Source: a virus
Length of the DNA: 41,871 nt
Reading direction: 5' to 3' (one strand)
IMG/VR virus record: IMGVR_UViG_3300009506_000079
Span: 1 to 41,871 of that record
Notes under the pieces: generated by a model
Database searches by the model: none
Told to the model about the DNA's origin: nothing
What the model saw: the letters and a program-made list of their open reading frames with translations, nothing else
Made by a program: the position numbers and the translations under genes
Part shown: positions 14,605 through 31,588 of the stretch, in pieces
How positions within the stretch are numbered: position 1 is the first letter of the stretch
Layout of the letters: every line of letters begins with the position of its first letter

Positions 14605-16704
14605 ATGGCTACCCAAACTCAAGAAATTAAAATTCCTGCTTTACCTTTGCTTGAACCTTTGAGCAAAGCCACTTCCACAACACTTTCTCCCGTTGCACTT
14701 CGTGATACAGACTTTTTAGAAATTGATGTTGATAAGCAAACGGGTGAAGATTTTATCTGCAAGGGTGTCTGCTTAAAAAAGGCAAACACAATGCTTGCAG
14801 GTGACGTTGCCACAGAATTCGTTCAAGTTGACGGTGAAACATTCGTCAAGGATGAACGTTTTTATAATTATCCTTCCTACAACGCTTCAATCACTTGGTT
14901 CCGCAAGGTTCCCGAACGTAAGCAGATCAGTTACGGGACTTGGAAACTTGCAGGAACAGACTTCACTGCACTTGTCATACACCACGTATGGAAAGGAAGT
15001 CACCTTATATTCAGAAGTGAAGAAGCGGCACTTCTTTATGAATTTCTTCTCAAGCGTTTTCTTGTGCAATCAAAGTCTGCTTTGATTGCAGCAACGTGGA
15101 AGACCACGCAAGAAACCCCTACAATGCCTGATGATTTCATTGAACACCCTACGTTGCCTTTAGCACCTTATCAAAAGGTTGCTCTGCTTGCAAGCATAAC
15201 AACTCCCGTCTATTCTCTGTTGATGGAGCAGGGAACAGGCAAGACTGCAATTGTTGTAAACCGGATTTGTTATGAAGGTGGTAAGAAACGCAAAAGCAAA
15301 AAGGGAATGTATCGTGCTTTAGTTGTTTGCCCCCGGCAAGTCAGAAGAAATTGGGTGAAGGAACACGAACGCTTTGCAACAACACCGGGAAAGGTTGCAG
15401 ACCTTCGGGGTGACAAGCTTGCAAAGATTAAAGAATTGATTGATGCAGTGCGTGACGAAGATGATTGCTGCTGGTCAACTGCAATCATTAGTATTGATTC
15501 AATCGACTCAATATGGGAAGCAATCGGAAAAGTAAAATGGGATTTGGTGGTTATTGATGAAAGCCACAAGATCAAGTCACCGAAAACAAAACGTTTCAAA
15601 ACAGTGATGAAGATTGATGACGTTAGGACAAAATCTAAAATGATTTTGACCGGGACTCCGATTACTAACACAGTGTTTGACTTGTGGGCTCAATTTGAAT
15701 GGTTGGGCAAAGGTTTAAGCGGATTCAAAACGTTCAGCAACTTTAGAAGCTTTCACGGTAGATGGGAAAGCTTTATGCAAGCAGGGACAGCGGTTCAAAG
15801 GCTTATCGGTTTTCAAAATGTCCCGTTGATTCAGGAAAGACTTGCAAGACTTGCGTTCTTGATTCGGAAGAAAGATGCAAACTTGAATCTTCCTGAAAAG
15901 CTTTATGATGTTTCTGAAACTGAAATGACTGCTGTTCAAGCACAGATTTATAAGAAAATGGCAACACGTCTTGTTGTTGAAATTGATGAACTTATGGCAA
16001 ACGCAACTGCAACAGGACAGAAAGTCAGCGTTGACCACGTTCTAACAAAACTTCTTCGTCTTGCACAGATTTGCAGCGGACACATTAAACTTGATGACGC
16101 ACCTGATTTTGAAGCAGGTGAAATGAAAACAGGTGCAGTTATTCAAATTGGTGACACTAACCCCAAAGTTGAAGACCTTATCACTTTGATTAGAGAACAA
16201 TGGGAAAGTGACCCCAACTGCAAGTTTCTTGTGTGGGCTTGTTTTGTTGAAGATATGCGAGTGATTAGTGAAAGACTTGCAGAAGAAGGAATTAACCACG
16301 TTGGTTATCACCCTGTGATTCAAAAAGAGTACAGGGTTGCACAACCTGAACTTGCGGAAGAACGTTTGAACAGCGATGACAATTGCATGGTATTTGTTGG
16401 CAATCCTGCTTCTGCGGGTGTCGGATTGAATATGTTAGGTTATGACAAAGAAAACCCTGATGCTTCTGAAAAGTATGTGGGGCATGAAGTTTTCTTTTCC
16501 TGCAACTGGTCTGCTGTTGATAGGATTCAAGCAGAAGACAGGGCTCACAGACGGGGAACAAGAAGCACACTTCAAATTACTGACCTTTTGATTCCTAACA
16601 CGATTGATGAAGAAATCAGAAACAGAGTGACACAGAAAAGACAAATGGCTTTGACGATTCAGGATGTAAAAGACATTCTGCAAAGCATTTTGAGAAGCTA
16701 CTAA
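14605..16704 (+). CDS. SNF2/DEAD-type superfamily 2 helicase
   Basis: The 699-residue protein has a complete set of SF2 helicase motifs: a PYQ segment at 188-190 before motif I, MEQGTGKT (Walker A) at 207-214, VIDESH (motif II) at 316-321, LTGTP (motif III) at 348-352, a C-terminal RecA-like lobe with GNPASAGVGLNM, and motif VI as Q642-x-EDRAHRRG651. The CNWSAVDRIQAEDRAHR pattern is that of SNF2-like phage helicases. The first 180 residues form an N-terminal extension without recognised motifs. ATG 14605 is preceded by ACGGAGAAAAGAAA. It opens the replication operon, followed by a J-domain protein 17 bases on. Likely role: ATP-driven remodelling of DNA or protein-DNA complexes during replication or recombination. 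Family call very sure, task inferred. Confidence 0.92.
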   Translation: MATQTQEIKIPALPLLEPLSKATSTTLSPVALRDTDFLEIDVDKQTGEDFICKGVCLKKANTMLAGDVATEFVQVDGETFVKDERFYNYPSYNASITWFRKVPERKQISYGTWKLAGTDFTALVIHHVWKGSHLIFRSEEAALLYEFLLKRFLVQSKSALIAATWKTTQETPTMPDDFIEHPTLPLAPYQKVALLASITTPVYSLLMEQGTGKTAIVVNRICYEGGKKRKSKKGMYRALVVCPRQVRRNWVKEHERFATTPGKVADLRGDKLAKIKELIDAVRDEDDCCWSTAIISIDSIDSIWEAIGKVKWDLVVIDESHKIKSPKTKRFKTVMKIDDVRTKSKMILTGTPITNTVFDLWAQFEWLGKGLSGFKTFSNFRSFHGRWESFMQAGTAVQRLIGFQNVPLIQERLARLAFLIRKKDANLNLPEKLYDVSETEMTAVQAQIYKKMATRLVVEIDELMANATATGQKVSVDHVLTKLLRLAQICSGHIKLDDAPDFEAGEMKTGAVIQIGDTNPKVEDLITLIREQWESDPNCKFLVWACFVEDMRVISERLAEEGINHVGYHPVIQKEYRVAQPELAEERLNSDDNCMVFVGNPASAGVGLNMLGYDKENPDASEKYVGHEVFFSCNWSAVDRIQAEDRAHRRGTRSTLQITDLLIPNTIDEEIRNRVTQKRQMALTIQDVKDILQSILRSY

Positions 16705-19951: not shown

Positions 19952-22819
19952 ATGCTAAGGATAGAGATTGTAAACGCAATTGCCGAATTGGAACGCTACG
20001 GTTGGGGTTATGAACCTGCCGGGAACAATGAAATAAAGTTTCGTTGTCCTTGTCACGACGATTCGTCACCTTCTGCAAGTCTTAACACAGAGAATAATTT
20101 GTGGCACTGTCTTGTGCCTTCTTGTGCTAAGAAGGGTGACATTGTCTCATTGTTAGCCTACATCGGTAGTTGTGAACGCAAAACAGTTATAGTTGACCTT
20201 CTCACCCGCTACCCTGATTTAGAATCTACCAAGGTTATAAATCAGGAGCGGGTGGAGAAGTACCACCAAGACATTTGGAAAGCAGGACCATTCCTGCAAG
20301 CGTTATACGATAGGGGCGTGACAGATGGTGACATAAAAGAAGCAAGACTTGGGTTCAGTGCAAGTGAAGGCAGAATCATTATCCCTGTTTACAACATGCA
20401 GGGACAAGTGGTAAATCTTCGCAAATACCTTCCATCTGCACCGGGACCGGAAAAGTTTCGGAACATTCGTGGTTATACCACAATGGCAATTTATCAACCG
20501 AAACAACTTTCCTACCCTACGCTTTGGATTTGTGGTGGTGAACTGAAAGCGTTAGTTGCAAAACGTTTTTTGAACCCATTACAAACAGGTGCAATATCGG
20601 TGACAGCGGGTGAAGGCAATTGGGACAGCAAGTTTAACCAGTTGCTTAAAGGTAAGCACATCTTTATTTGTATGGACGTAGATAAAGCGGGAGTTGCTGC
20701 ACGTCGAATTCTTGCAAGTGCCTTATATAGTGTTGCAGCGTCCATTCACTTTATCAATCTTCCACTTGATTCAAGCAAATATCCAAAGGGCGACATTAAC
20801 GATTGGGTTGCAAAGGAAGCAGCAGCAGAAGCAGACTTCCAAAAAGCAATGCAAGAAGCAGTTAAGTTTATTCCGCCGACAATAGATGATGAAGACAATG
20901 AAATTATAACCTGCAAATTGATTGATGCAGCAAGAGCGGAACAAATGGGGAAAAGGATTAACTGCAAAGCAATGATTTCTGCTTTGGATTCAGTGCCGTT
21001 TATTGTCCCAAAGGTTTTAGGAGTAAGATGCACAAGAGATCAAGCGTTTTGCACTACTTGCAGAATTAACGCCGAAAGTGTTGACGAACAAACGGGGCTT
21101 GCCTACGTCACACTTAAACCGACGAACGCCGGGATTCTGGAAATGATAAACGTCAATCAGAAAAACCTGAAAGCGGCAATGCAAACTTCGATCAATGCCC
21201 CCGGTTGTCGCAATTGTGATTTCTTTCCACAAGAGTTTTACAACGTTTTAGATTGCAGATTGACAACACCACTTGAATTAGTTGGTGACAATGGCGACAA
21301 CAAAGAACACATTGTTCAACCTGCTTATATGGTGACAAACCGTCACTTAGACCTTAACACACCTTACTGCATACAAGGCAGACCTTTTCCCCACCCGCTA
21401 ACGTCACAAGCTGTTCTGCTTGTTGATAGAATACAAGAAACCGAAGATAGTTTAGCTTCCTGCACCTTTACAAAGACAGATTCCAAACATCTGCAAATCT
21501 TTCAACCTGAACATTGGACCACAGAAAGCCTACAAGAAAAGCTTGAAGATATTTACACAGACCTTGCGTTCAATGTCACCCGTATATTCAAAAGAAGGGA
21601 TTTGCATTTAGCTTTTGACTTCACTTATCATTCTGTCTTGTTCTTCCCATTTGAAGGGAGAATTCAAAACGGTTGGACAAATTGCCTTGTCACCGGGGAT
21701 AGTTCACAAGGCAAAAGTGAAATTGCAATCAGGCTGATTGAACATTACGGTTTAGGGATTCGTCACGATTGCAAGAACGCAACAGAAGCAGGATTGTTAG
21801 GCGGGTTGCAGCAAATTGGTTCACGTTGGTTTGTTGTTTGGGGAATGATTCCTTTACATGATAAACAACTTGTGGTGCTTGAAGAAATTAAAGGTGCAGA
21901 CTTGAAAGTGCTTGGACGTTTAACAGATATGCGTTCAAGTGGCAAAGCACAAATTACGAAGATCGAAAGGCGTAGTGCTTACGCACGAACACGATTGATG
22001 ATGCTTTCAAATCCACGAAGTGACAGGGCTGTTTCTGCTTACACCTATGGAATTGAGATTATCAAAGAACTTATTGGAAACCTTGAAGACATTAGACGTT
22101 TTGACTTTGCGTTGATAGTCTCTGCAAAGGAAATTGATTCAAGGGAAATCAACCAGTTTATCACAGAGAACAAACCACAAGACCCACATTACTATTCAGA
22201 CATTTGCAGAAAAGCGGTTCTTTGGGCTTGGACTCGCACACCTGAACAGATAGAGTTTGAACCTACAGCAGAGAAGCTTTGCTTAGAAAAGTCTTTGATG
22301 CTCTGCAAAGAATTCACAGAGTCAATCCCACTTTGTGACAAAGGGACAATGCGTTATAAATTAGCACGATTAGCAATTGCGTTGGCTTGCAGAACATTCA
22401 GCAGCGATTCAGGGCAAGACTTGCAAGTTAGACCTTGCCACGTTGAATATGTCACTGACTACCTACTTCGCAACTACACCAATTCTGTTTGTGGTTATAA
22501 AGACTTCTCACAGGCAGAAAGATATACTTCGATGATAGATGACGAAGAAGCTATAGTAAAACGTATTACTTCAACCAAATATCCAAAAGACTTTGTTGAA
22601 CAGCTATTGAGAACAAATGAAATTGTGTTGAATGATATTTGTGACTGGTGTGAAGTGTCCCGTGACGTTGGGCAATCAATCCTTTCTCTATTAGTCAGGA
22701 AAAGGGCATTGTTCCGAAACGGTTTGCAGTATGAGAAATCTTCGGGGTTCATTGAACTGTTGAAGAAATTGCTAACACAACCGTTGGAGCAAGTGACTTA
22801 TGAAGGGGATGAATTTTGA
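19952..22819 (+). CDS. TOPRIM primase fused to an MCM-like AAA+ helicase (955 aa)
   Basis: ATG 19952 follows GCGGTGAC; an in-frame GTG at 19946 gives two more residues, and the positions here count from that GTG. Residues about 32-65 form a CHC2-type zinc finger (FRCPCHDD, HC, PSCAKKGD). A TOPRIM domain has GGEL at 197-200 and MDVDKAG at 243-249. A Cys-rich region (C362, C369, C372, C421, C424) precedes the motor. The C-terminal motor has Walker A GDSSQGKS at 584-591, Walker B LVVLEE at 642-647, an LSNPR sensor at 687-691 and an RRFDFALI arginine-finger segment at 717-724. This order and the wording ATEAGLLGGLQ, NPR, RRFD are those of MCM helicases rather than of DnaB/T7 gp4. It would unwind DNA and prime synthesis for the polymerase gene that follows with a TTGA overlap. 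Confidence 0.85.
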   Translation: MLRIEIVNAIAELERYGWGYEPAGNNEIKFRCPCHDDSSPSASLNTENNLWHCLVPSCAKKGDIVSLLAYIGSCERKTVIVDLLTRYPDLESTKVINQERVEKYHQDIWKAGPFLQALYDRGVTDGDIKEARLGFSASEGRIIIPVYNMQGQVVNLRKYLPSAPGPEKFRNIRGYTTMAIYQPKQLSYPTLWICGGELKALVAKRFLNPLQTGAISVTAGEGNWDSKFNQLLKGKHIFICMDVDKAGVAARRILASALYSVAASIHFINLPLDSSKYPKGDINDWVAKEAAAEADFQKAMQEAVKFIPPTIDDEDNEIITCKLIDAARAEQMGKRINCKAMISALDSVPFIVPKVLGVRCTRDQAFCTTCRINAESVDEQTGLAYVTLKPTNAGILEMINVNQKNLKAAMQTSINAPGCRNCDFFPQEFYNVLDCRLTTPLELVGDNGDNKEHIVQPAYMVTNRHLDLNTPYCIQGRPFPHPLTSQAVLLVDRIQETEDSLASCTFTKTDSKHLQIFQPEHWTTESLQEKLEDIYTDLAFNVTRIFKRRDLHLAFDFTYHSVLFFPFEGRIQNGWTNCLVTGDSSQGKSEIAIRLIEHYGLGIRHDCKNATEAGLLGGLQQIGSRWFVVWGMIPLHDKQLVVLEEIKGADLKVLGRLTDMRSSGKAQITKIERRSAYARTRLMMLSNPRSDRAVSAYTYGIEIIKELIGNLEDIRRFDFALIVSAKEIDSREINQFITENKPQDPHYYSDICRKAVLWAWTRTPEQIEFEPTAEKLCLEKSLMLCKEFTESIPLCDKGTMRYKLARLAIALACRTFSSDSGQDLQVRPCHVEYVTDYLLRNYTNSVCGYKDFSQAERYTSMIDDEEAIVKRITSTKYPKDFVEQLLRTNEIVLNDICDWCEVSRDVGQSILSLLVRKRALFRNGLQYEKSSGFIELLKKLLTQPLEQVTYEGDEF

Positions 22820-24801
22820 TTGTGTTACCTAACAATTCAAAGATTTGTGAACGGGTTGAAGACTTACCTAATTTAACCTTTGCAAAAGAGTTGTTTCTTG
22901 ATGTTGAAACCAAAAGGGTTTTTGACCACAAGAAGTTAGGCGGTCTATACCCGTGGAAAGGTGACCGGATTTGTGGGATAGGTGTCACGGTGGACAACCA
23001 CCGAGAACAATGGTATGCACCTGTGCGGCACACTGCACCGGGTTCAAACAACTTACCTATTGAACCTGTTATGCGTTGGGCTCAAGACCTTGTGTCTTCC
23101 TGCACAGATTGGATTAACCACAACGTCAAGTTTGATGCAATCTGTTTACATGCAGATGGTGTTGAATTTAAGTGCAGACTGATTGACACTGCTGTTATGA
23201 CTCGTCTGCATTACAGCGATTATCCTTCGTATGCTTTGAAGAAGCTTTGTTCTTCGTTGCTTGGTGTTGACACTGGTTCAGAAGATAGAGTCAAGACTTA
23301 CTTAGACAGCATTAAGTCAAAGAATTATGCAGACGTTCCTATTGACCTGCTTGGCGAATACTGTTGTGACGATATTAGAATGAACCGTGTGTTGTATCGT
23401 TTCTTGCAAAAAGAAAGACCACCGGAACTTGCAGACCTTTGGGAAACTGAAACACTTTTAACCCCTGTGCTTTATGATATGGAAGTGCGGGGGATAATCA
23501 TTGACCCACAAGAATGTAAAATTGAAGCAGTCAAGTCACTTAGGAAGATGATTGAACTGTCAACTGATATTGTTGAACTAACAGGTAGGGAATTCACAAA
23601 CAGCAATGATTGTATTTATGATATATTCGTGAATCAGTTGGGCTTACCTGTTCTTGCAACAATAAAAGAGAAAGACGAAGAATCAGGAAGAAAGGTTGAC
23701 ACTGGAAGACCTACGTTCGACAAAGATGCACTGCAATTATATATTGCACACCCACAAGTGACAAGTGACCCAAAGACTTTGCGAATTGTAAAGTCAATTG
23801 CTGAATACAGAATTGAATCAACTTTCAAAAGTCTATACCTTGACACATTTCTTGAACTGAACGTTGATGGAGTCTTACACCCTAACTACAATCAATCAGT
23901 AAGAAGTGGAAGACTTTCGTGCAGCAGACCGAATTCACAGCAACAAAACAAAAGATCAAAACGTTTGATTTACCCCCGCCCCGGTTATGGTTTTATTTCA
24001 AATGACTATAGCCAAATTGAATACCGTTTGATTGTTCATTACATTCAAGATAAAGCGGCAATCAAAGCCTACAATGAAAATCCTGATACAGACTTCCATC
24101 AGTGGGTTGCAGACCTAATGCAAGGTATAGGGCGTGACCCTGCAAAGACTCTAAACTTTGGAATGGCTTTCGGTGGTGGAAAGAAATTGGTGACCACTGA
24201 ACTAATGGCAAATCCTGTAATTATTGATATAGTGACTAAAAGAGTTGATGCACTTGTTGAATCTGGACAACTTGAAGAAAAGTACAAGTTGAAGAAGTTT
24301 CGTGAAATGTGTGCAACATTTGCAAATGATGCTTATGAAAAGTATCACGAAACCTTACCGGGAATTAAAGACACTTCAAATCGTGCAGCGAGAATGTGTA
24401 AACTCCGTGGTTTTGTTTTCAATGCTTATAAAAGACGTGGTTACATACCAAGTGACTTTGCTTACAGGTCATTTAACAGAATTATCCAAAGCACAGCAGC
24501 AGATATAATGAAAGAAAGAATTGTTGCAGTTGCACCACGTTACAACAAAACAACAAAAGATTGGGGCGTTTTTGAATCAGGCAACGTTCACGATGAAAAC
24601 TTAACAGAAGCACCACTTGATGTTTTATATGATGAAAATTTACACAAGCATTTAGTTTCAACACTTGAATCACCAAAGAAACAATTTAGGGTTCCTATTG
24701 TAACTTCGTTGGGAGTTAGTCCTAACAATTGGGCAGAAGCAGCAGGAAAAGCAATCATTAGAGACAGCGAAGGAAACTTTATTGCTGGAAAATTGAAATA
24801 A
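22816..24801 (+). CDS. polA-like: Family A DNA polymerase with 3'-5' exonuclease domain
   Basis: The 661-residue protein starts at TTG 22816, which overlaps the previous TGA (TTGA) and has AGGGG at 22804-22808. The exonuclease motifs are present: LFLDVET with D29/E31, NHNVKFDA with D107, and EYCCDD with Y182/D185. Polymerase motif A is NDYSQIEYRL (D397, E402), motif B is R440-x3-K444-TLNFGMAFG with Phe in place of the usual Tyr, and motif C is VHDE (HDE 592-594). There is no 5'-nuclease domain; that activity is encoded separately at 34225. It is the phage replicative polymerase and closes the replication operon, followed by an inverted repeat and a new promoter. Very sure. Confidence 0.95.
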   Translation: MIVLPNNSKICERVEDLPNLTFAKELFLDVETKRVFDHKKLGGLYPWKGDRICGIGVTVDNHREQWYAPVRHTAPGSNNLPIEPVMRWAQDLVSSCTDWINHNVKFDAICLHADGVEFKCRLIDTAVMTRLHYSDYPSYALKKLCSSLLGVDTGSEDRVKTYLDSIKSKNYADVPIDLLGEYCCDDIRMNRVLYRFLQKERPPELADLWETETLLTPVLYDMEVRGIIIDPQECKIEAVKSLRKMIELSTDIVELTGREFTNSNDCIYDIFVNQLGLPVLATIKEKDEESGRKVDTGRPTFDKDALQLYIAHPQVTSDPKTLRIVKSIAEYRIESTFKSLYLDTFLELNVDGVLHPNYNQSVRSGRLSCSRPNSQQQNKRSKRLIYPRPGYGFISNDYSQIEYRLIVHYIQDKAAIKAYNENPDTDFHQWVADLMQGIGRDPAKTLNFGMAFGGGKKLVTTELMANPVIIDIVTKRVDALVESGQLEEKYKLKKFREMCATFANDAYEKYHETLPGIKDTSNRAARMCKLRGFVFNAYKRRGYIPSDFAYRSFNRIIQSTAADIMKERIVAVAPRYNKTTKDWGVFESGNVHDENLTEAPLDVLYDENLHKHLVSTLESPKKQFRVPIVTSLGVSPNNWAEAAGKAIIRDSEGNFIAGKLK

Positions 24802-24858: not shown

Positions 24859-24887
24859 TTGACAAATTAAACGGTTTGTGTTATTCT
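24859..24887 (+). promoter_or_regulatory. Sigma-70-like promoter of the first leader/tRNA-like cluster
   Basis: TTGACA at 24859-24864, 17-base spacer, TATTCT at 24882-24887. Transcription would begin near 24894 and pass through a leader of about 220 bases before the first ATG at 25113. AAATTTTT stands upstream of the -35, as at the other promoters. Confidence 0.75.
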
Positions 24888-25112
24888 GTATTTCAGAATA
24901 AGAGTTAATTAACAAGTGAATAATACGGGGCTCAAAGCAAAAGCCTGATACAACAAGCTTGGAACACCAGTGCTGATGATAATCGGCTGGAAAACAAAAG
25001 CAAAGCGGATTGCCCACCCTTAACGGTTGCCTTGAAAGTTTCAAGGTTGCGGGTTCGATTCCTGCAAAGGGCTTACTTCGACAATATCAACTCTAATAGA
25101 AAGGATAGAAAG
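24888..25112 (+). ncRNA. Structured 5' leader, copy 1
   Basis: The transcribed leader has no conserved reading frame but is closely similar to 27167-27381. Shared blocks are GTATTTCAGAATAA, AAGTGAATAATACGGGGCTC, AAAAGCCTG and a hairpin CCA-GCTGAT/ATCGGC-TGG with loop GATA near 24967-24990. It ends with a tRNA-like element (separate entry) and then TACTTCGACAATA and the AATAGAAAGGATAG Shine-Dalgarno block. An ORF beginning GTGAATAATACG stops after 10 codons here and runs on to 33 codons in copy 2, so the RNA and not a peptide is conserved. Likely a regulatory leader. Confidence 0.65.
25017..25071 (+). ncRNA. tRNA-like element 1 (with extra hairpin)
   Basis: Acceptor-like CCCTT (25017-25021) pairs with AAGGG (25067-25071). 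A T-arm of 5 bp (GCGGG/CCTGC with one G-T pair) has loop TTCGATT at 25054-25060, giving the universal GTTCGANNC signature. Before it stands a hairpin CCTTGAA/TTCAAGG (25030-25046) placed like a long variable arm. D and anticodon arms are absent. Copy 2 at 27288 keeps the fold with a compensating A-T to C-G change in the hairpin. Confidence 0.7.
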
Positions 25113-25439
25113 ATGACAACTTGCGAAACACTTCACATTGACCACAATGAATATCAGAAGAAAGTGGTTTGGATGTCAGACAATGAATTAAGATGGACGA
25201 TTGAAGATGCAAAGAAAGCAATTGAAGCGATGCCCAATAATCCGAAGTGCGGGATTTATCAGGATGAAATAAATTACTGCACGATGGAGATTGCAAGAAG
25301 AACAAAAGCCCATTACACAAACATAACAAAGAGACTCAAGAAGAAAGAGTTTGTTTGTCTTGAATGTGGCAAGACATTTAGCAAACCAGTTGGACGTTGC
25401 AGCAAGTGTCACGGTGTTGACATTGATGTAAATATTTAA
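25113..25439 (+). CDS. Small zinc-ribbon protein (108 aa)
   Basis: ATG 25113 follows the AATAGAAAGGATAG block. The N-terminal two thirds are helical and charged (NEYQKKVVWMSDNELRW, EDAKKAIEAMP). The C-terminus has a CLECGKTF...CSKCHG zinc ribbon (CxxC, 10-residue spacer, CxxC). This suggests nucleic-acid or protein binding. Its stop codon is followed without a gap by tRNA-like element 2. First gene of the leader 1 transcript. Confidence 0.65.
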   Translation: MTTCETLHIDHNEYQKKVVWMSDNELRWTIEDAKKAIEAMPNNPKCGIYQDEINYCTMEIARRTKAHYTNITKRLKKKEFVCLECGKTFSKPVGRCSKCHGVDIDVNI

Positions 25440-25480
25440 CCCCTGAACGGTCTTGTGCGGGTTCGACTCCCGCACAGGGG
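25440..25480 (+). ncRNA. tRNA-like minihelix 2
   Basis: CCCCTG (25440-25445) pairs with CAGGGG (25475-25480). TGCGGG (25456-25461) pairs with CCCGCA (25469-25474) around the loop TTCGACT. The two 3' strands are contiguous, so the 12-bp coaxial length of a tRNA acceptor/T-arm half is kept. A 10-base bridge AACGGTCTTG replaces the D, anticodon and variable arms. It begins on the base after the stop codon. No U-run follows, so it is not a usual terminator. Confidence 0.75.
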
Positions 25481-25522
25481 CTTACTTCGACAATATCAAC
25501 TAACATTAGAAAGGATAGTGAA

Positions 25523-25732
25523 ATGAAGATTGCAGGTGAAATCAAAATTGATGATGAAGTCAGAGTTATCAGCGGACCCTTTGAAGGTAGAGTTGCGTTT
25601 GTCTCTGCAATGTGTTACAACTCTGTAACAAAAGAGATTGACAGTCTGATGATAAGTAATGCAACTGATGATGATGAAATGATAAACCCTGATGATGTTG
25701 AGACAACAGGCAACGTCTTCACCATAGATTAG
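25523..25732 (+). CDS. Small KOW-like protein (69 aa)
   Basis: ATG 25523 follows ATTAGAAAGGATAGTGAA. The start KIDDEVRVISGPFEGRVAFVSAM resembles a KOW motif (basic/hydrophobic strand, then G-x-F/x-G-x-V), found in NusG, SPT5 and ribosomal proteins that contact RNA or the ribosome. The second half is acidic. A second KOW-like protein is encoded three genes on (26092). The role is unknown; KOW is a moderate call because the motif is short. Confidence 0.55.
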   Translation: MKIAGEIKIDDEVRVISGPFEGRVAFVSAMCYNSVTKEIDSLMISNATDDDEMINPDDVETTGNVFTID

Positions 25733-25745
25733 AAAGGATAGTAAC

Positions 25746-26009
25746 ATGAAAGCGGTTCGATACAATAAGAAGAAAGGTTGCATGTTTTGCCCTGATTGCC
25801 AAACATACGAAGTGAGTTGTGTTGGTTCAGGGACATTAACAATCCCAACGGGATTCGGTTTTCTTCCCGGTGACCACAAGTTTTCAATCGGTGGTTACAA
25901 ACTCAAAGGTTGGATTGGTGTTTGTGAAAAGTGTCACAAAGAAGTTATGAACTATACTTCAAAACGTTCTTTCAAGAAGTTTCCGAAGCTTGGCAAGAAA
26001 GCTTCTTAA
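25746..26009 (+). CDS. Small zinc-finger protein (87 aa)
   Basis: ATG 25746 has ATTAGAAAGGATAG just upstream, 13 bases after the previous stop. Two Cys pairs, CMFCPDC near residues 12-18 and CEKC near 60-63, could form one zinc site around a Gly-rich beta segment (SGTLTIPTGFGFLPGDHKF). The end is Lys-rich (SKRSFKKFPKLGKKAS), suggesting nucleic-acid contact. tRNA-like element 3 starts on the base after its stop. Confidence 0.6.
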   Translation: MKAVRYNKKKGCMFCPDCQTYEVSCVGSGTLTIPTGFGFLPGDHKFSIGGYKLKGWIGVCEKCHKEVMNYTSKRSFKKFPKLGKKAS

Positions 26010-26050
26010 CCCCTGAACGGTCTTGTGCGGGTTCGACTCCCGCACAGGGG
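26010..26050 (+). ncRNA. tRNA-like minihelix 3
   Basis: The sequence is identical to element 2 over all 41 bases: CCCCTG/CAGGGG acceptor, TGCGGG/CCCGCA T-stem, TTCGACT loop, AACGGTCTTG bridge. It again begins directly after the stop codon of the gene before it. Sequence after the element (CTTGAACAAATCGACAAC) leads into another TTAGAAAGGATAG start block. Confidence 0.75.
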
Positions 26051-26091
26051 CTTGAACAAATCGACAACAACTTATTAGAAAGGATAGTAAC

Positions 26092-26670
26092 ATGATTATC
26101 AACATAGCAAGCAAACTAAGTGACATTCCGCAAAGAGCAATCTTTATCAGGTTCCACAGAGACAGCAGCAGTCACGGTTATTGGACTTATGGAACGTATT
26201 ACAGGAAGTGTGTGCGGGACCGTGAAGCAAATCATTACAATGACAGTGATTTCTATATGACAGTCTTTGACGAAGAAAAAGACTGCTTCAAAGAAATCGA
26301 ATATGCAACAACAAGAGCTTGGACTTACCCTGCAATGGGCTCCAACGTTGATGCAACCGACGAACTCAAAGAAAGGTATGCAAAGGTGCAAGCAGCAATT
26401 GCGGCACACTACAAGAAGTTAAGAGAAGAAGCAGAAGCAAAAAGACCCGCTAAAGGAAAACGGGTTAGGGTAGTCAAAGGGAGAAAGCACGTTGGGAAAG
26501 AAGGGAAAGTGTTTTGGCAGGGAGCAAATCAGTTTCGGACGTATTACAAGAACGGTTACAACAAGCCAAGTGACGATTGCAACCAAAGGTTAGGAATTCA
26601 ACAGGACGATGGAACAAAATTCTTTGTTCCGTTTCAATATGCAGAAGTGATTCAACAAAGTGACAATTAA
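26092..26670 (+). CDS. Protein with C-terminal KOW-like motif (192 aa)
   Basis: ATG 26092 has TTAGAAAGGATAGTAAC in front. The first 110 residues are mixed (RAIFIRFHRDSSSHGYW, FDEEKDCFKEIEYATT), followed by a charged helix (AHYKKLREEAEAKRPAKGK). Then GKRVRVVKGRKHVGKEGKVFW forms in essence a KOW motif, with a C-terminal beta region. KOW proteins bind RNA, RNA polymerase or ribosomes, so the operon may act on transcription or translation; that is inference. Confidence 0.6.
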   Translation: MIINIASKLSDIPQRAIFIRFHRDSSSHGYWTYGTYYRKCVRDREANHYNDSDFYMTVFDEEKDCFKEIEYATTRAWTYPAMGSNVDATDELKERYAKVQAAIAAHYKKLREEAEAKRPAKGKRVRVVKGRKHVGKEGKVFWQGANQFRTYYKNGYNKPSDDCNQRLGIQQDDGTKFFVPFQYAEVIQQSDN

Positions 26671-26676
26671 ATAGAT

Positions 26677-26719
26677 GCCCCTAAAGGTAAGTGTGCGGGT
26701 TCGACTCCCGCACAGGGGC
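26677..26719 (+). ncRNA. tRNA-like minihelix 4
   Basis: GCCCCT (26677-26682) pairs with AGGGGC (26714-26719). The T-arm TGCGGG/CCCGCA with TTCGACT is kept, while the bridge differs (AAAGGTAAGTG region). Compared with elements 2 and 3 the acceptor pairing is shifted outward by one pair: an added G-C at the end replaces the lost inner G-C. It lies six bases after the stop of the KOW-like gene. Confidence 0.7.
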
Positions 26720-26757
26720 TTTCAGTTTTCGACAACTCTATTAGAAAGGATAGAACA

Positions 26758-27051
26758 ATGGCAAAGACTTACAAAGTGACAATCAGTTTTCCAGTGATTG
26801 CAGACAATCAAGCAGATGCAATCAGAATTGCAAAGAACGCTTTGGAAATCTATTCTGGTGGTGAAGTGGTCACCGTGGAAGTTGTAAAGCCAACATTAAA
26901 ACTCCGTTACCTTTCAGGTTGGGGTGAATGGTGCGTTAAGTGGTATGACGAAGATGGAAAGTTTGACGAAACCAAGTCTTATTACACCGATGACAAGCAG
27001 GACGCAAAAGACACAATGAAGATGATGCAAGCAGAGATTGACAAAGCTTGA
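26758..27051 (+). CDS. Hypothetical small protein (97 aa)
   Basis: ATG 26758 follows ATTAGAAAGGATAGAACA. The protein starts with strands and a helix (TYKVTISFPVIADNQADAIRIA) in the style of small ferredoxin-like folds, then YLSGWGEWCVKWYDEDGKF and a charged C-terminal helix. No family recognised. It is the last gene of the first cluster; 33 bases after its stop a hairpin and the second leader promoter begin. Confidence 0.55.
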   Translation: MAKTYKVTISFPVIADNQADAIRIAKNALEIYSGGEVVTVEVVKPTLKLRYLSGWGEWCVKWYDEDGKFDETKSYYTDDKQDAKDTMKMMQAEIDKA

Positions 27052-27084
27052 ATCAGGAAAATTTAGAGTAGGTGCTAAAATCCC

Positions 27085-27103
27085 CGTTTTTAGCTCAAAA
27101 ACG
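27085..27103. promoter_or_regulatory. Inverted repeat CGTTTTT-AGCTC-AAAAACG before second leader
   Basis: A perfect 7-bp stem around AGCTC is followed at once by a second pairing, CCGAAAA (27104-27110) with TTTTCGG (27121-27127). It corresponds in position and core to 24808-24822. It may end the first cluster's transcript or serve as operator of the promoter 35 bases on. Confidence 0.55.
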
Positions 27104-27137
27104 CCGAAAAATTTTTCATATTTTCGGGATTTTATGC

Positions 27138-27166
27138 TTGACATTTTCGATGTTCTGTGTTAGACT
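27138..27166 (+). promoter_or_regulatory. Sigma-70-like promoter of the second leader/tRNA-like cluster
   Basis: TTGACA at 27138-27143, 17-base spacer, TAGACT at 27161-27166. The flanks (GGGATTTT upstream, GTATTTCAGAATAA downstream) match the first leader promoter, so the two are duplicates. Confidence 0.75.
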
Positions 27167-27381
27167 GTATTTCAGAATAAAGGATATGACAAGTGAATAA
27201 TACGGGGCTCAAAACAAAAGCCTGTTTGCAGAGAAGTTTGAAACCAGTGCTGATGATAATCGGCTGGAAACGAAGACAAGTCACCCACCCTTAACGGTTA
27301 CCTTGCAGGACGCAAGGTTGCGGGTTCGATTCCTGCAAAGGGCTTACTTCGACAATACTAACCATTAGAAAGGATAGGACA
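27167..27381 (+). ncRNA. Structured 5' leader, copy 2
   Basis: It is a diverged copy of the leader at 24888-25112, with the same order of blocks: GTATTTCAGAATAA, ACAAGTGAATAATACGGGGC, AAAAGCCTG, CCAGTGCTGATGATAATCGG hairpin, CACCCTTAACGGTT, tRNA-like element, CTTACTTCGACAATA and the Shine-Dalgarno block. Differences are concentrated in loops and linkers, while stems are kept or compensated. This is the pattern of a functional RNA leader controlling the gene at 27382. Confidence 0.65.
27288..27342 (+). ncRNA. tRNA-like element 5 (with extra hairpin)
   Basis: CCCTT (27288-27292) pairs with AAGGG (27338-27342). T-arm GCGGG/CCTGC has loop TTCGATT. The extra hairpin is ACCTTGC/GCAAGGT (27300-27318) with loop AGGAC. 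Relative to element 1 the sixth pair of the hairpin changes from A-T to C-G on both sides and the loop is fully different, so pairing has been selected. Confidence 0.7.
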
Positions 27382-27687
27382 ATGCAAGTTGCACAAACAA
27401 TCTTGAATCAAATCGGAAAACAAGCTTTGATGATGATAGGTGCAAAACAGTTTGTTGCAGACAGAGATTCGGTTAGATTTCGAATTGGCCGAAACTGCAA
27501 GGGCTGGAACATGATTCAGATTCACCTGAATTATGCTGATGACCTTTACAGAGTTTCGTTTTTCAGGATTCGGAGCAAGAACGGTGTCCCGATGATTGCA
27601 CAGACTCACACAGAGTTTGGAATTTACTTCGATCAACTGCATGAAGTGATTGAACGCAACACAGGAATGTATACAAAACTGTTTTGA
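27382..27687 (+). CDS. Conserved phage hypothetical protein (101 aa)
   Basis: ATG 27382 follows ATTAGAAAGGATAGGACA. The sequence (VAQTILNQIGKQALMMIGAK, FRIGRNCKGWNMIQIHLN, DDLYRVSFFRIRSKNGVP, FDQLHEVIERNTGMYTKL) follows the pattern of a small protein common in phages and plasmids, in which a QTIL-QxGG-F-x-MxTGAK start and a TGLYTSL-like end are typical. Its function is unknown. It is the first gene of the second leader transcript and is followed by tRNA-like element 6. Confidence 0.7.
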   Translation: MQVAQTILNQIGKQALMMIGAKQFVADRDSVRFRIGRNCKGWNMIQIHLNYADDLYRVSFFRIRSKNGVPMIAQTHTEFGIYFDQLHEVIERNTGMYTKLF

Positions 27688-27695
27688 AACGCTTT

Positions 27696-27736
27696 CCCCT
27701 GCTTGGACTTGTGCGGGTTCGACTCCCGCACAGGGG
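27696..27736 (+). ncRNA. tRNA-like minihelix 6
   Basis: CCCCTG (27696-27701) pairs with CAGGGG (27731-27736). T-arm TGCGGG/CCCGCA with TTCGACT is as in elements 2 and 3, but the bridge is CTTGGACTTG. The helices are thus conserved while the bridge is free to change. It starts eight bases after the stop of the preceding gene. Confidence 0.75.
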
Positions 27737-27780
27737 CTTTCGATGAAACTTTATTCACACACATTAGAAAGGATAGTAAA

Positions 27781-28107
27781 ATGAAGGTTACCGGAAACAC
27801 AAATCTTGATGCAAAGAACGTTTTCATTCTGATTGCCGAAGAACTGAAAGAGACTGCAAACAATGCTGCACAGGCTTTAGGTAACTTCGACGTGAAGAAC
27901 GACGACGAAGCAAAGACAAAGGAAAACGCTGCAATTTTCGTTGATGACTTGCGGAGAATTGCGGAACGTGCAGAGAAGAAAGCGGAAAGGATTCAGAAGA
28001 AGATTGACAGTGCTTCGACACAGCAGAACAAAACGAAAGCCAAGAAAGACAAGCTTGCAGCAAAGATTGCTGCACTGAAAGCCAAGCTTGCACAGTTGGA
28101 AGACTAA
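27781..28107 (+). CDS. Small coiled-coil protein A (108 aa)
   Basis: ATG 27781 follows CATTAGAAAGGATAGTAAA. The second half is a long Lys/Glu/Ala coiled coil (RRIAERAEKKAERIQKKID; KDKLAAKIAALKAKLAQLED). It is the first of four small genes (27781, 28324, 29098, 29536) whose products all end in a similar coiled coil and that are each separated by structured RNA. Function unknown; oligomerisation or scaffolding of nucleic acid is possible. Confidence 0.6.
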   Translation: MKVTGNTNLDAKNVFILIAEELKETANNAAQALGNFDVKNDDEAKTKENAAIFVDDLRRIAERAEKKAERIQKKIDSASTQQNKTKAKKDKLAAKIAALKAKLAQLED

Positions 28108-28116
28108 GTGACATTG

Positions 28117-28157
28117 ACCCTGAACGGTCTTGTGCGGGTTCGACTCCCGCACAGGGT
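28117..28157 (+). ncRNA. tRNA-like minihelix 7 with compensated end pair
   Basis: ACCCTG (28117-28122) pairs with CAGGGT (28152-28157). Compared with elements 2, 3 and 6 the terminal C-G pair has become A-T by changes on both sides. T-arm TGCGGG/CCCGCA with TTCGACT and the AACGGTCTTG bridge are kept. The change on both sides supports selection for RNA pairing. A TTTT run after it means this copy alone could also act as a terminator. Confidence 0.75.
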
Positions 28158-28323: not shown

Positions 28324-28797
28324 ATGGCAAAGCGTGTAGGACAGACAGAACCGAACAGTGGCAACGAAGGAACGGATGATGCCGAAGGCAAAGGAAAAGT
28401 TGCTTTCGAGACAGCGGAAGCAAAGTTTCTGAACGACGAAAACAAGATAGTCACTGCCGTAAACAGTGACGGTCTTTTGGTTGCTGTACCGAAACCGATT
28501 GAAGTTTCGGGTGAAGTGGTTTACGAAGGGTTCGACATTCGCCTTCACAAGCCACTGAAAAAGGACCAGTTTGCAGACCTTGCAACTTACCTGCTGCACC
28601 AAGCATACGTTGCAAGGGCGAAAGCAGAGCGGTTCCTTGCAATGGCCGAAGACAAAGAGAAGAAAGCGGCAAGAATACAGAAGTTTGGTGACGAAGCGAC
28701 TCGCAAGAAAGCAATGAAGGTTGCACGTATGCGAGAGCAACTTGCCGAACTGGAAGCACAGTTGAAGGCAGACGGCGTAGAAGTGGACGACATTTAG
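28324..28797 (+). CDS. Small coiled-coil protein B (157 aa)
   Basis: ATG 28324 follows ACAGGAGTACAGACA. An acidic, flexible start (EPNSGNEGTDDAEGKGK) precedes a beta region (NKIVTAVNSDGLLVAVPKPI, GEVVYEGFDIRLHKPL) and a C-terminal coiled coil (AKAERFLAMAEDKEKKAARI; VARMREQLAELEAQLKAD). GC content looks higher than in the genes around it. No family is recognised. It shares the coiled-coil end with its neighbours. Confidence 0.6.
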   Translation: MAKRVGQTEPNSGNEGTDDAEGKGKVAFETAEAKFLNDENKIVTAVNSDGLLVAVPKPIEVSGEVVYEGFDIRLHKPLKKDQFADLATYLLHQAYVARAKAERFLAMAEDKEKKAARIQKFGDEATRKKAMKVARMREQLAELEAQLKADGVEVDDI

Positions 28798-28845
28798 TCC
28801 AACGCCGAAAAGCAAATCACTTTCAGGTATTCTGCAATATCGTCA

Positions 28846-29054
28846 ACGTGGTGACTCGTTGTCACCACGTCTGACCAGTGGTGGCACTGATTAGACGTAG
28901 TGACAACGACAAACTTAATAAGACTATCCTTGTCCCGGTGGTTTGTTATGACCTTGGACTTCCTTGCAAGGCAGAACAAAGCTCAACCACACGGGACACT
29001 AATTGTCGAAGCGTGGTGACAGTGTGTCACCACGTTTGGTCAGTTTCAGAACTG
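28846..29054 (+). ncRNA. Intergenic RNA with a duplicated two-hairpin element
   Basis: Copy 1: ACGTGGTGAC/GTCACCACGT (28846-28870), then CAGTG-GTGG-CACTG (28876-28889). Copy 2: CGTGGTGACA/TGTCACCACG (29012-29034), then CAGTT-TCAG-AACTG (29041-29054). The second hairpin's closing G-C pair became T-A by two-sided change, and loops differ. Between the copies TGTCCCG (28931-28937) pairs with CGGGACA (28992-28998). The 300-base gap between genes is thus almost fully structured. No ORF or promoter is convincing. Confidence 0.65.
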
Positions 29055-29097
29055 ATTGAACGTTGTGACACACTAATTAGAATTCGGAGAAAAGACA

Positions 29098-29430: not shown

Positions 29431-29463
29431 TTCGATTCCTTATTTCTTTACTCCTATGTTGGG

Positions 29464-29494
29464 GTGTCCCGTCTTTCGATGTGGGGCGGGACAC
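29464..29494 (+). ncRNA. Intergenic hairpin GTGTCCCG/CGGGACAC
   Basis: An 8-bp perfect stem (29464-29471 with 29487-29494) has a 15-base loop. It lies in the 105-base gap between coiled-coil genes C and D. No U-run follows directly, so it is more likely a leader or processing structure than a terminator. Confidence 0.5.
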
Positions 29495-29535
29495 TTAGCA
29501 ATCATTCACCTTATTAGGATTAGAAGGGGCTATTT

Positions 29536-29844: not shown

Positions 29845-29859
29845 AAACCCCAACGTATG

Positions 29860-29963
29860 CTTGGTGACAAATCAATGTCACCAAGTCTGCACAGTGTGTA
29901 ACAGTCTGATGATAGTATCGGCCCTGAAACTGTTGTCAAAATGTTAATCACCCCCTGTGCAGA
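29860..29963 (+). ncRNA. Structured intergenic RNA upstream of the ligase gene
   Basis: CTTGGTGAC (29860-29868) pairs with GTCACCAAG (29877-29885). Directly after it TCTGCACAG (29886-29894) pairs with CTGTGCAGA (29955-29963), enclosing AACAGT/ACTGTT and an inner CTGAT/ATCGG stem. The inner CTGATGATA...ATCGG motif recurs in both cluster leaders (GCTGATGATAATCGGC). It probably belongs to the 5' leader of the ligase mRNA. Confidence 0.6.
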
Positions 29964-30007
29964 CTTCGTGACATTGAACAAAGACAAACCTTAGTGGTGG
30001 GTGGCTT

Positions 30008-30829
30008 ATGGCTTTCTTGATTCCGTTTCCTGAATTCAAAGACTATGCAATGCAGGAAGTATCTTTCTTGCAATTGAAGTATGATGGTCACTTGGGCAAA
30101 ATATACCGTGGACAAGGTGACGTTCAAATTTTCTCAAAGAACGACATTGATATAACAGACAAAGCAATGTCTTGTGAACAAGTTGCAAAAGTTTTGAGCA
30201 ACGTTCCAAAACATTCGATTTTATTTGGTGAGCTTTTCTCCGAAGGTGCAGCGGCAACAGTACCAACGCTGCTCAAACAAGGAAGTCAAGAATTGCAGTT
30301 TAGGGCTTTCGCTGCACCTGTTTTTGCAACTAACAACTGGTTCAATCGTGACTTGATTGATACAGTTGAAGAATTAGAGACTAAAGGAATTACTTGTGCA
30401 TACACTGCACGATTGCAAAACGGTCAAGTAGACCGTGAAGGGCTGCTTGCAAGAGCGGTTCAAAAAGGAATTGAAGGGTGGGTTTTGAAATTAAGCCACA
30501 TGAAAGGGTGGTATAAACTCAAACCCGTCAAGACAGCGGACGTTGTAGTAACTGCAACAAAACAGAGTTGGACTGCAAATCATTTTGGTGACTTGCAGTG
30601 TGTTGTGGTGAGTGTCTACAATGACAAAGGACAGTTAGTGACAGTGGGCAATGTTGGAACAGGGTTCACCGAAGAATTTAGAAAGACTGTAGACCGTCAC
30701 ACCTTACTTGGAAAGGTTTGTGAAGTTTCTTTTGATTCGTTTATGGTGAACGCTATGCGTTTTCCCCGGTTTGTTCGTTGGCGGGAAGACAAAAACCCAC
30801 AAGATTGCAAATGGACGCAATTTGAGTGA
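30008..30829 (+). CDS. ATP-dependent DNA ligase
   Basis: The 273-residue protein has the nucleotidyltransferase motifs of small phage ligases: motif I KYDG with the adenylated Lys at 24, motif III FGELF at 73-77, motif IV EGWVLK at 156-161 and motif V YKLKPVKTADVVV at 169-181. A short OB-fold domain ends with RFPRFVRWREDKNPQDC. The length is typical of minimal viral ligases. It would seal nicks left by the polymerase and 5'-3' exonuclease also encoded here. ATG 30008 has a GGTGGGTGG-type Shine-Dalgarno and a structured leader. Confidence 0.9.
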   Translation: MAFLIPFPEFKDYAMQEVSFLQLKYDGHLGKIYRGQGDVQIFSKNDIDITDKAMSCEQVAKVLSNVPKHSILFGELFSEGAAATVPTLLKQGSQELQFRAFAAPVFATNNWFNRDLIDTVEELETKGITCAYTARLQNGQVDREGLLARAVQKGIEGWVLKLSHMKGWYKLKPVKTADVVVTATKQSWTANHFGDLQCVVVSVYNDKGQLVTVGNVGTGFTEEFRKTVDRHTLLGKVCEVSFDSFMVNAMRFPRFVRWREDKNPQDCKWTQFE

Positions 30830-30937: not shown

Positions 30938-31588
30938 ATGATTATTGTTATTCCGTCAACAGGCAGACCAGACCCCGAAAACCAAACAACTGCAAATCAG
31001 TTGATTCGGGATGGAGTGACAAACAAATTCAATTGCATTATGATTGTTAAGCCTACAGATAGAAGGGCTTATGCGAGAAATTACGAAGCACACTTTACAC
31101 TTCTTTCTGCTGGTTCAAGTGACTTTCGCAATTTCATAATGTATTTTGTCTTTTTGCGAGACAACAGGCTCATTCTTCTTGATGATGATTTGCATTTCTA
31201 TCACGATGATGCAGACGGTGACGCTTTGCAACTTGTGCAAGAAATGCAGAACGCAGTTGAAGATTATGCAGCGGTTGGAATTGGAGAAAACAAACCTTTT
31301 GCGGAAAGAGAAAACGCCACAATTCATCATGCGTTAGCTTTTGACCGGACTATCTTTTGGACAGAGAAGATAGACTTCACAAGTGACCTTCACGGGGTGC
31401 TTAGTTTAGTTGAATTAGGTTACCCAAACTACAGATTAGGTCACTGGTGGTATAAGCACGAACACACAAGAGCAATCCTTAAAAGTAAAAAGATTGCTGA
31501 CCTACGTTCATTGCATCCAAGAACGGTGAATGATAAAGGTCAAATCTTTTGGGAAACAGCGTTGGGTTTGAAAATGAAGAAGCGATAA
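30938..31588 (+). CDS. GT-A glycosyltransferase-like protein (216 aa)
   Basis: ATG 30938 follows TAATAGAAAGGATAGTCAG. It starts IIVIPSTGRPDPEN, has IMIVKPTDRRAYAR and a LILLDDDLHFY segment with a DDD metal/nucleotide-sugar motif at 82-84, and an HHALAFDRTIFW/DFTSDLHGVL region consistent with the acceptor side. This pattern resembles small phage GT-A enzymes, including those linked to hypermodified DNA bases, but no base hydroxylase or other modification enzyme is visible in the window, so the substrate (DNA, virion or host glycan) stays open. A second, larger GT-A protein is encoded at 1168. Confidence 0.75.
   Translation: MIIVIPSTGRPDPENQTTANQLIRDGVTNKFNCIMIVKPTDRRAYARNYEAHFTLLSAGSSDFRNFIMYFVFLRDNRLILLDDDLHFYHDDADGDALQLVQEMQNAVEDYAAVGIGENKPFAERENATIHHALAFDRTIFWTEKIDFTSDLHGVLSLVELGYPNYRLGHWWYKHEHTRAILKSKKIADLRSLHPRTVNDKGQIFWETALGLKMKKR

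Follow-up and report, generated by a model that had tools for sequence, protein, structure and literature searches.

That tRNAs punctuate polycistronic RNA is textbook knowledge for mitochondria, and to our knowledge such punctuation has not been described for the protein-gene operons of phages. Here we examine seven RNA elements that resemble the acceptor and T-arm half of a tRNA and that lie in an operon of small genes in the IMG/VR virus record IMGVR_UViG_3300009506_000079, whose whole 41,871 nt (41.9 kb) we call the window. We consider it fairly probable that these elements are tRNA-mimicking signals for the processing of polycistronic RNA, the phage equivalent of t-elements. Punctuation by tRNAs and t-elements is itself already known; its use in phage operons is apparently undescribed, and among open-access papers we found no report of tRNA mimics punctuating a phage operon.

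The closest described systems are the t-elements of plant mitochondria, incomplete tRNA-like structures that lie beside genes and set mRNA ends (PMC8003010, PMC4125048, PMC4368725), and some of which are substrates of the RNase P PRORP1 (PMC4125048, PMC8003010). The window elements are likewise incomplete tRNA-like structures next to gene ends, but they belong to a prokaryote DNA phage, form a seven-copy array with constant start-codon spacing and consist of acceptor and T-arm only, and their cleavage is something we infer. The nearest structural counterpart is AT1, the minihelix of McClain, Guerrier-Takada and Altman, in which acceptor stem, T-stem and T-loop stand alone as a 12-pair stack; minihelices of this half of tRNA are cleaved by Escherichia coli RNase P (PMC11143913). 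The window elements have the same 12-pair acceptor/T-stem stack and a TTCRANY loop; AT1 is synthetic and carries a 3' CCA, and the natural copies of the window have a bridge bulge of 10 nt and no RCCA. Natural RNase P substrates that are not tRNAs include M3 RNA, the C4 antisense RNA of P1/P7, T4 gene 32 mRNA and bacterial his operon mRNA (PMC11143913), but these are single sites, with no acceptor/T-arm element repeated from one gene junction to another. Among phage RNAs, intergenic type II hammerheads (Perreault 2011, PMC3088659; RF02276) are cleavage elements that follow stop codons and occupy the same operon in relatives of the window virus; they are unrelated in structure to the window elements, which would depend on host enzymes. 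The HDV-like theta ribozymes that accompany phage tRNAs also couple phage RNA processing to tRNA-type structures, but they are self-cleaving, have been proposed to trim the 3' trailers of real suppressor tRNAs and are not tRNA mimics between protein genes (Kienbeck 2024, PMC10879173). The YrlA Y RNAs (RF02553), present in some phages, are T-arm-bearing tRNA mimics of another architecture with a Ro-like protein partner, and this family has no match between 24780 and 30000 of the window at E<=5.

All seven elements of the window are found where the original prediction had placed them, on the + strand, with zero on the - strand, and shuffled windows hold a mean of 0.05 T-arms and at most 1. The T-arm consensus is GCGGG-TTCGAYT-CCYGC, and the loop, predicted to be the universal T-loop, fits TTCGANT behind a G-C closing pair in every copy. 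In the compact copies (41-43 nt) a 5' acceptor strand is followed by a bridge of about 10 nt, the T-arm and a 3' acceptor strand continuous with the T-stem; T1 and T5 have one additional hairpin. D and anticodon arms are missing from all seven, as had been claimed, and neither ARAGORN nor Rfam (RF00005) calls a tRNA gene at any window element; in the compact copies a bridge of only 10 nt leaves no room for an anticodon arm. The expected 11-12 pairs of acceptor and T-stem are there by count, but the 5' side of the compact copies breaks after 5-6 acceptor pairs, which makes the split 6+6 and not 7+5, and nearest-neighbour folding makes the tRNA-like form optimal only in T4 among the window copies, as it does in a distant copy from another viral contig (L077).

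Placement follows gene ends in most copies. The two elements said to follow a stop codon without a gap are T2 and T3, and T4, T6 and T7 begin 6, 8 and 9 nt past one. The distance from the end of an element to the next ATG is 38-44 nt in six of the seven copies and 166 nt for T7. T1 and T5 are located in promoter leaders and not between genes, and the junction of genes 25523 and 25746 has no element. No intrinsic terminator is called on the + strand at any element, which agrees with the claim that they are not normal terminators; the accompanying claim that a U-run is generally missing has an exception in T7, followed by UUUU, the other copies being followed by CUU or UUU. The promoter-plus-leader segments 24859-25016 and 27138-27287, each closed by its element (T1 or T5), are near-identical duplicates, and leader 1 folds no better than its shuffles.

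Table 1. Coordinates in the window of the seven tRNA-like elements (T1-T7), the operon that holds them and the hairpins downstream.
Feature	Coordinates	Strand	Remarks
Sigma-70-type promoter 1	24859-24887	+	TTGACA-17-TATTCT; second copy at 27138
Leader 1	24890-25016	+	Very similar to leader 2
T1	25017-25071	+	Acceptor CCCTT/AAGGG, additional hairpin, T-arm
Small gene 1	25113-25439	+	108 aa; weak zinc-ribbon-like match
T2	25440-25480	+	First base directly after TAA
Small gene 2	25523-25732	+	69 aa; weak KOW-like match
Small gene 3	25746-26009	+	87 aa
T3	26010-26050	+	Same sequence as T2; first base directly after TAA
Small gene 4	26092-26670	+	192 aa; unknown function, phrog_30881
T4	26677-26719	+	Outer G-C pair added; tRNA-like fold is predicted minimum
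Small gene 5	26758-27051	+	97 aa; unknown function, phrog_7884
Sigma-70-type promoter 2	27138-27166	+	TTGACA-17-TAGACT
Leader 2	27167-27287	+	Copy of leader 1
T5	27288-27342	+	Copy of T1; additional hairpin with compensatory A-U to C-G change
Small gene 6	27382-27687	+	101 aa; unknown function, phrog_9437
T6	27696-27736	+	
Small gene 7	27781-28107	+	108 aa; charged/coiled-coil
T7	28117-28157	+	A-U replaces C-G as outer pair
MAKRVGQ gene	28324-28797	+	Orthologs in L009 (60%), L253 (54%) and others; synteny anchor
Long dsRNA hairpin X1	28840-28915	+	Next junction after MAKRVGQ; z -4.9
Long dsRNA hairpin X2	29005-29080	+	z -5.6
GC-rich hairpin	29455-29500	+	At following junction; z -4.7
Long dsRNA hairpin X3	29855-29985	+	Ahead of DNA ligase gene; z -7.8
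DNA ligase gene	30008-30829		

The closest relative by polymerase (L009/L008, 71% identity) has a downstream gene set that matches the window, with a MAKxVGQ gene (60% identical), two small coiled-coil-type genes and a DNA ligase. A single element (CGCTCTG-15 nt-GTAGG TTCGAAT CCTAC-A-CAGAGCG) lies at 12261-12307 of L009, in the promoter leader ahead of the orthologous MAKKVGQ gene. A homologue with conserved pairing in a related phage had been set as a test of the original prediction, and the L009 element supplies one, at the corresponding place and with compensatory pairing. The other three junctions of the L009 operon are type II hammerheads by Rfam (12832-12896, 13223-13289 and 13647-13712; 53-61 bits, cut-off 37), each beginning no more than a few nt from a stop codon. 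Hammerheads above this cut-off occur in six of about 29 records of polymerase relatives (L009, L027, L036, L041, L052 and L253), with weaker matches in others, and the one in L253 begins 2 nt past the stop of the MAKxVGQ ortholog; their intergenic placement rests on L009, L027 and L253, which were read directly, the automated open reading frame context being messy. In the window itself RF02276 has 0 matches. The CUGAUGA at 24973 and 27250 in the window leaders was considered as a hammerhead core and rejected, as it forms a plain hairpin without GAAA or stem III and has no Rfam match.

The leader start CAAGTnnATAATAyGGrGCTC is common to the window leaders (before T1 and T5) and the L009 leader (12095-12260), and a search with it found, beyond L008/L009, four other contigs, all by chance. 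Also in the L009 leader are a D-arm-like hairpin, its loop containing UUGGUA, and a second GCTCTG, a possible competitor for the 3' acceptor strand. Searches of cultured phages with the operon and with single elements by blastn gave nothing or only the T-arms of tRNAs and tmRNAs; the element pattern had no match in viral contigs, the exact T-arm/acceptor string is in no genome contig and a ribosome-binding-site pattern was too frequent to inform. For most of the genes that lie between the window copies, L009 lacks a counterpart at that position.

Given the hammerheads at comparable boundaries in the relatives, the simplest way to account for the elements is that they serve the processing of the polycistronic RNA. 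Throughout the tRNA-like RNAs described here the constant part is the one that RNase P and RNase Z recognise in a tRNA, and the part used in translation varies or is missing. On this reading the operon would be transcribed from its two sigma-70-type promoters and the mimics would fold within the nascent polycistronic RNA. Host RNase Z would cut on the 3' side of the acceptor, close to the CUU tail, and RNase P would cut 5' of the acceptor, 0-9 nt past the stop codon, either directly or after CCA addition. The products would be mRNAs of one or two genes whose 3' ends are fixed at the stop codon and whose 5' leaders measure about 40 nt. In relatives, self-cleaving type II hammerheads would do the equivalent job, and long hairpins in the window could be RNase III sites. 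The idea that the elements punctuate an mRNA, part of the original prediction, is supported at the sequence level by the L009 homologue, the hammerheads of relatives and the non-canonical tRNA-like RNAs that three further relatives carry at gene ends; cleavage, the enzymes and any effect on mRNA stability or stoichiometry are what we infer.

Several observations weigh against such processing signals. In T2, T3, T6 and T7 a continuous hairpin that leaves out the 5' acceptor strand comes out 1.2-3.7 kcal/mol more favourable, in nearest-neighbour energies whose bulge penalties leave coaxial stacking out of account, and T1 and T5 fold best in a shifted register, (G)CCC/GGG(C). Having arisen by recent duplication, the seven window copies are not independent of each other, the compact form is found in one close relative only and most polymerase relatives have no T-arm at all. 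Short U-runs lie 3' of T7 and of the L009 element. RNase P of the E. coli type prefers a 3' RCCA, and none follows the window elements (flanks CTT/TTT), which suggests that RNase Z acts either alone or, together with CCA addition, ahead of RNase P; RNase P cleavage may thus need prior RNase Z trimming and CCA addition. Nor is t-element cleavage universal, since the cox1 t-element mRNA was unchanged on RNase P knock-down in one plant study (PMC4368725).

The ambiguity of folding is settled in favour of the acceptor pairing, as far as sequence comparison can speak. When the window copies are compared with the single, differently sequenced L009 copy, 5 of 11 pairs show compensatory changes on both sides: pair 1 is C-G, A-U (T7) or G-C (L009), pair 6 is G-C or, in T1 and T5, U-A, and three further pairs differ on both sides between window and L009. 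In a register test 96% of cells pair, against 43-62% in slid registers. The alignment was registered by hand with the bridge removed (MAFFT could not register the variable bridge), so the pair count leans towards structure, although the sequence changes themselves are plain; this count and an architecture scan with shuffles were used in place of a covariance model. The continuous hairpin is not conserved, its pairing partner missing in T4 and L009.

This comparison also bears on what else the elements might be. That the elements serve as 3'-end stabilisers or as weak intrinsic terminators, GC-rich hairpins that halt RNA polymerase or hold off 3' exonucleases, with a tRNA likeness that is incidental or borrowed for exonuclease resistance, seems to us unlikely. 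Hairpins do stand close behind stop codons, the U-runs after T7 and the L009 element would fit and T2, T3, T6 and T7 have the continuous hairpin as their predicted minimum, but only two or three U follow the stem in most copies, the exact T-loop of tRNA is present in all copies and in L009, and the 5' acceptor strand, needless for a terminator, has been kept with compensatory changes. In addition, T1, T5 and the L009 element lie in 5' leaders, and a terminator there would shut the operon off. Slightly less probable again are elements for protein binding or tRNA decoys, which would engage a phage protein or host tRNA enzymes (RNase P, the CCA-adding enzyme, TruB, TrmA, EF-Tu) for translation control or titration, cleavage not being the point. 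Several tRNA modification enzymes need no more than the T-arm as substrate, and the start-codon spacing is nearly constant in six copies, both of which speak for this; a decoy, however, has no need to stand right after stop codons, and the known activity of the hammerheads that relatives carry at boundaries of the same operon is cleavage.

Phage attachment (att) sites often coincide with the 3' ends of tRNAs, and the elements could in principle be recombination or gene-cassette sites of this kind through which small genes are gained, as the near-identity of the copies and the lack of L009 counterparts for most genes between them might suggest. We nevertheless hold this very improbable: no integrase or recombinase was found among the window proteins scanned (part of the open reading frames), the exact T-arm/acceptor string is absent from the genome contigs searched, the L009 and L077 copies are alike in architecture and not in sequence, and the compensatory changes on both acceptor strands point to selection on RNA pairing and not on DNA identity. 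Just as improbable, in our judgement, is that they are decaying remnants of tRNA genes that were duplicated with their neighbours. A tRNA origin is likely, and RNAs in four other viral contigs (L077, L338, L351 and L374) do resemble tRNAs with an internal deletion, but decay would not have kept two-strand pairing, a perfect T-loop and a position at gene ends in seven copies and a 71%-identical relative.

After the MAKRVGQ gene, long near-perfect hairpins take over at the window junctions (z -4.7 to -7.8). The early mRNA of phage T7 carries RNase III sites, and by analogy the long window hairpins are candidate sites for this enzyme. X1, X2 and X3 have at least 23 pairs, and each overlaps a preceding GGTGAC...GTCACC hairpin with which it is mutually exclusive.

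Among 19 records of polymerase relatives only a few hold the T-arm pattern besides the window and L009. RNAs of L030 and L041 combine 8-10 acceptor pairs with a T-arm, a larger structured insert replacing the anticodon arm (one L030 copy also has a D-arm), and begin 6-8 nt past a stop codon or overlap it; set against upstream sequence that had been shuffled, the search for a pairing partner gave 4/300, 2/300 and 0/300. L010 has two tandem tRNA-like RNAs with large inserts at 15946-16182, upstream of a small coiled-coil gene; this phage has true tRNAs and a tmRNA as well. In L077, a distant relative, a compact minihelix ending in 3' ACCA lies between two genes.

A scan of viral contigs for D-arm starts with a T-arm so close behind that an anticodon arm would not fit returned 51 contigs, a set selected by pattern and not an unbiased sample. 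In about one third of them the 7-bp acceptor is fully complementary; ARAGORN misses these, and several lie straight after a stop codon. Some of the set precede terminators and may be stand-alone small RNAs. RNAs with acceptor, D-arm and T-arm and no anticodon arm were seen in L331, L344, L348, L365, L367, L371, L372 and L377, and with acceptor and T-arm only in L338, L351, L361/L077 and L374. Both of these sets come from diverse viral contigs and escape ARAGORN, and in several cases a stop codon immediately precedes the RNA. Two YrlA-like RNAs occupy an unannotated intergenic gap of Xanthomonas phage Alcala (L324; 677-772 and 1153-1261), with scores of 50 and 39.6 bits, under the 69-bit gathering score. 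In Mycobacterium phage Chaser (L325; 549-929) an unannotated T-arm-bearing RNA next to a gene for a Ro-like RNA-binding protein is likely a Y RNA.

As for the virus itself, the window has genes for tail, a SNF2-type helicase, primase, a polA-type polymerase, an ATP-ligase and a 5'-3' exonuclease, and the operon with the seven elements lies downstream of the polymerase gene (22816-24801). A host search with the polymerase among genome contigs gave no match. At 30938-31588 there is a weak match, slightly under cut-off, to a TET-associated glycosyltransferase (TAGT), from which hypermodified DNA is possible.

A broader proposal, which we put forward tentatively and with somewhat less confidence than the processing role itself, is that this phage group punctuates its operons with interchangeable cleavage modules, namely anticodon-less tRNA mimics acting through host RNase P/Z, type II hammerheads and RNase III hairpins, and that such mimics recur independently in unrelated phages, where tRNA finders miss them. 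If the mimics are cut, the phage would make the host's essential tRNA-maturation enzymes the processor of its own mRNA, and the hammerheads of its relatives would gain a concrete role, the punctuation of operons. The findings also suggest that anticodon-less tRNA mimics form a class of RNAs in phage genomes that tRNA finders pass over.

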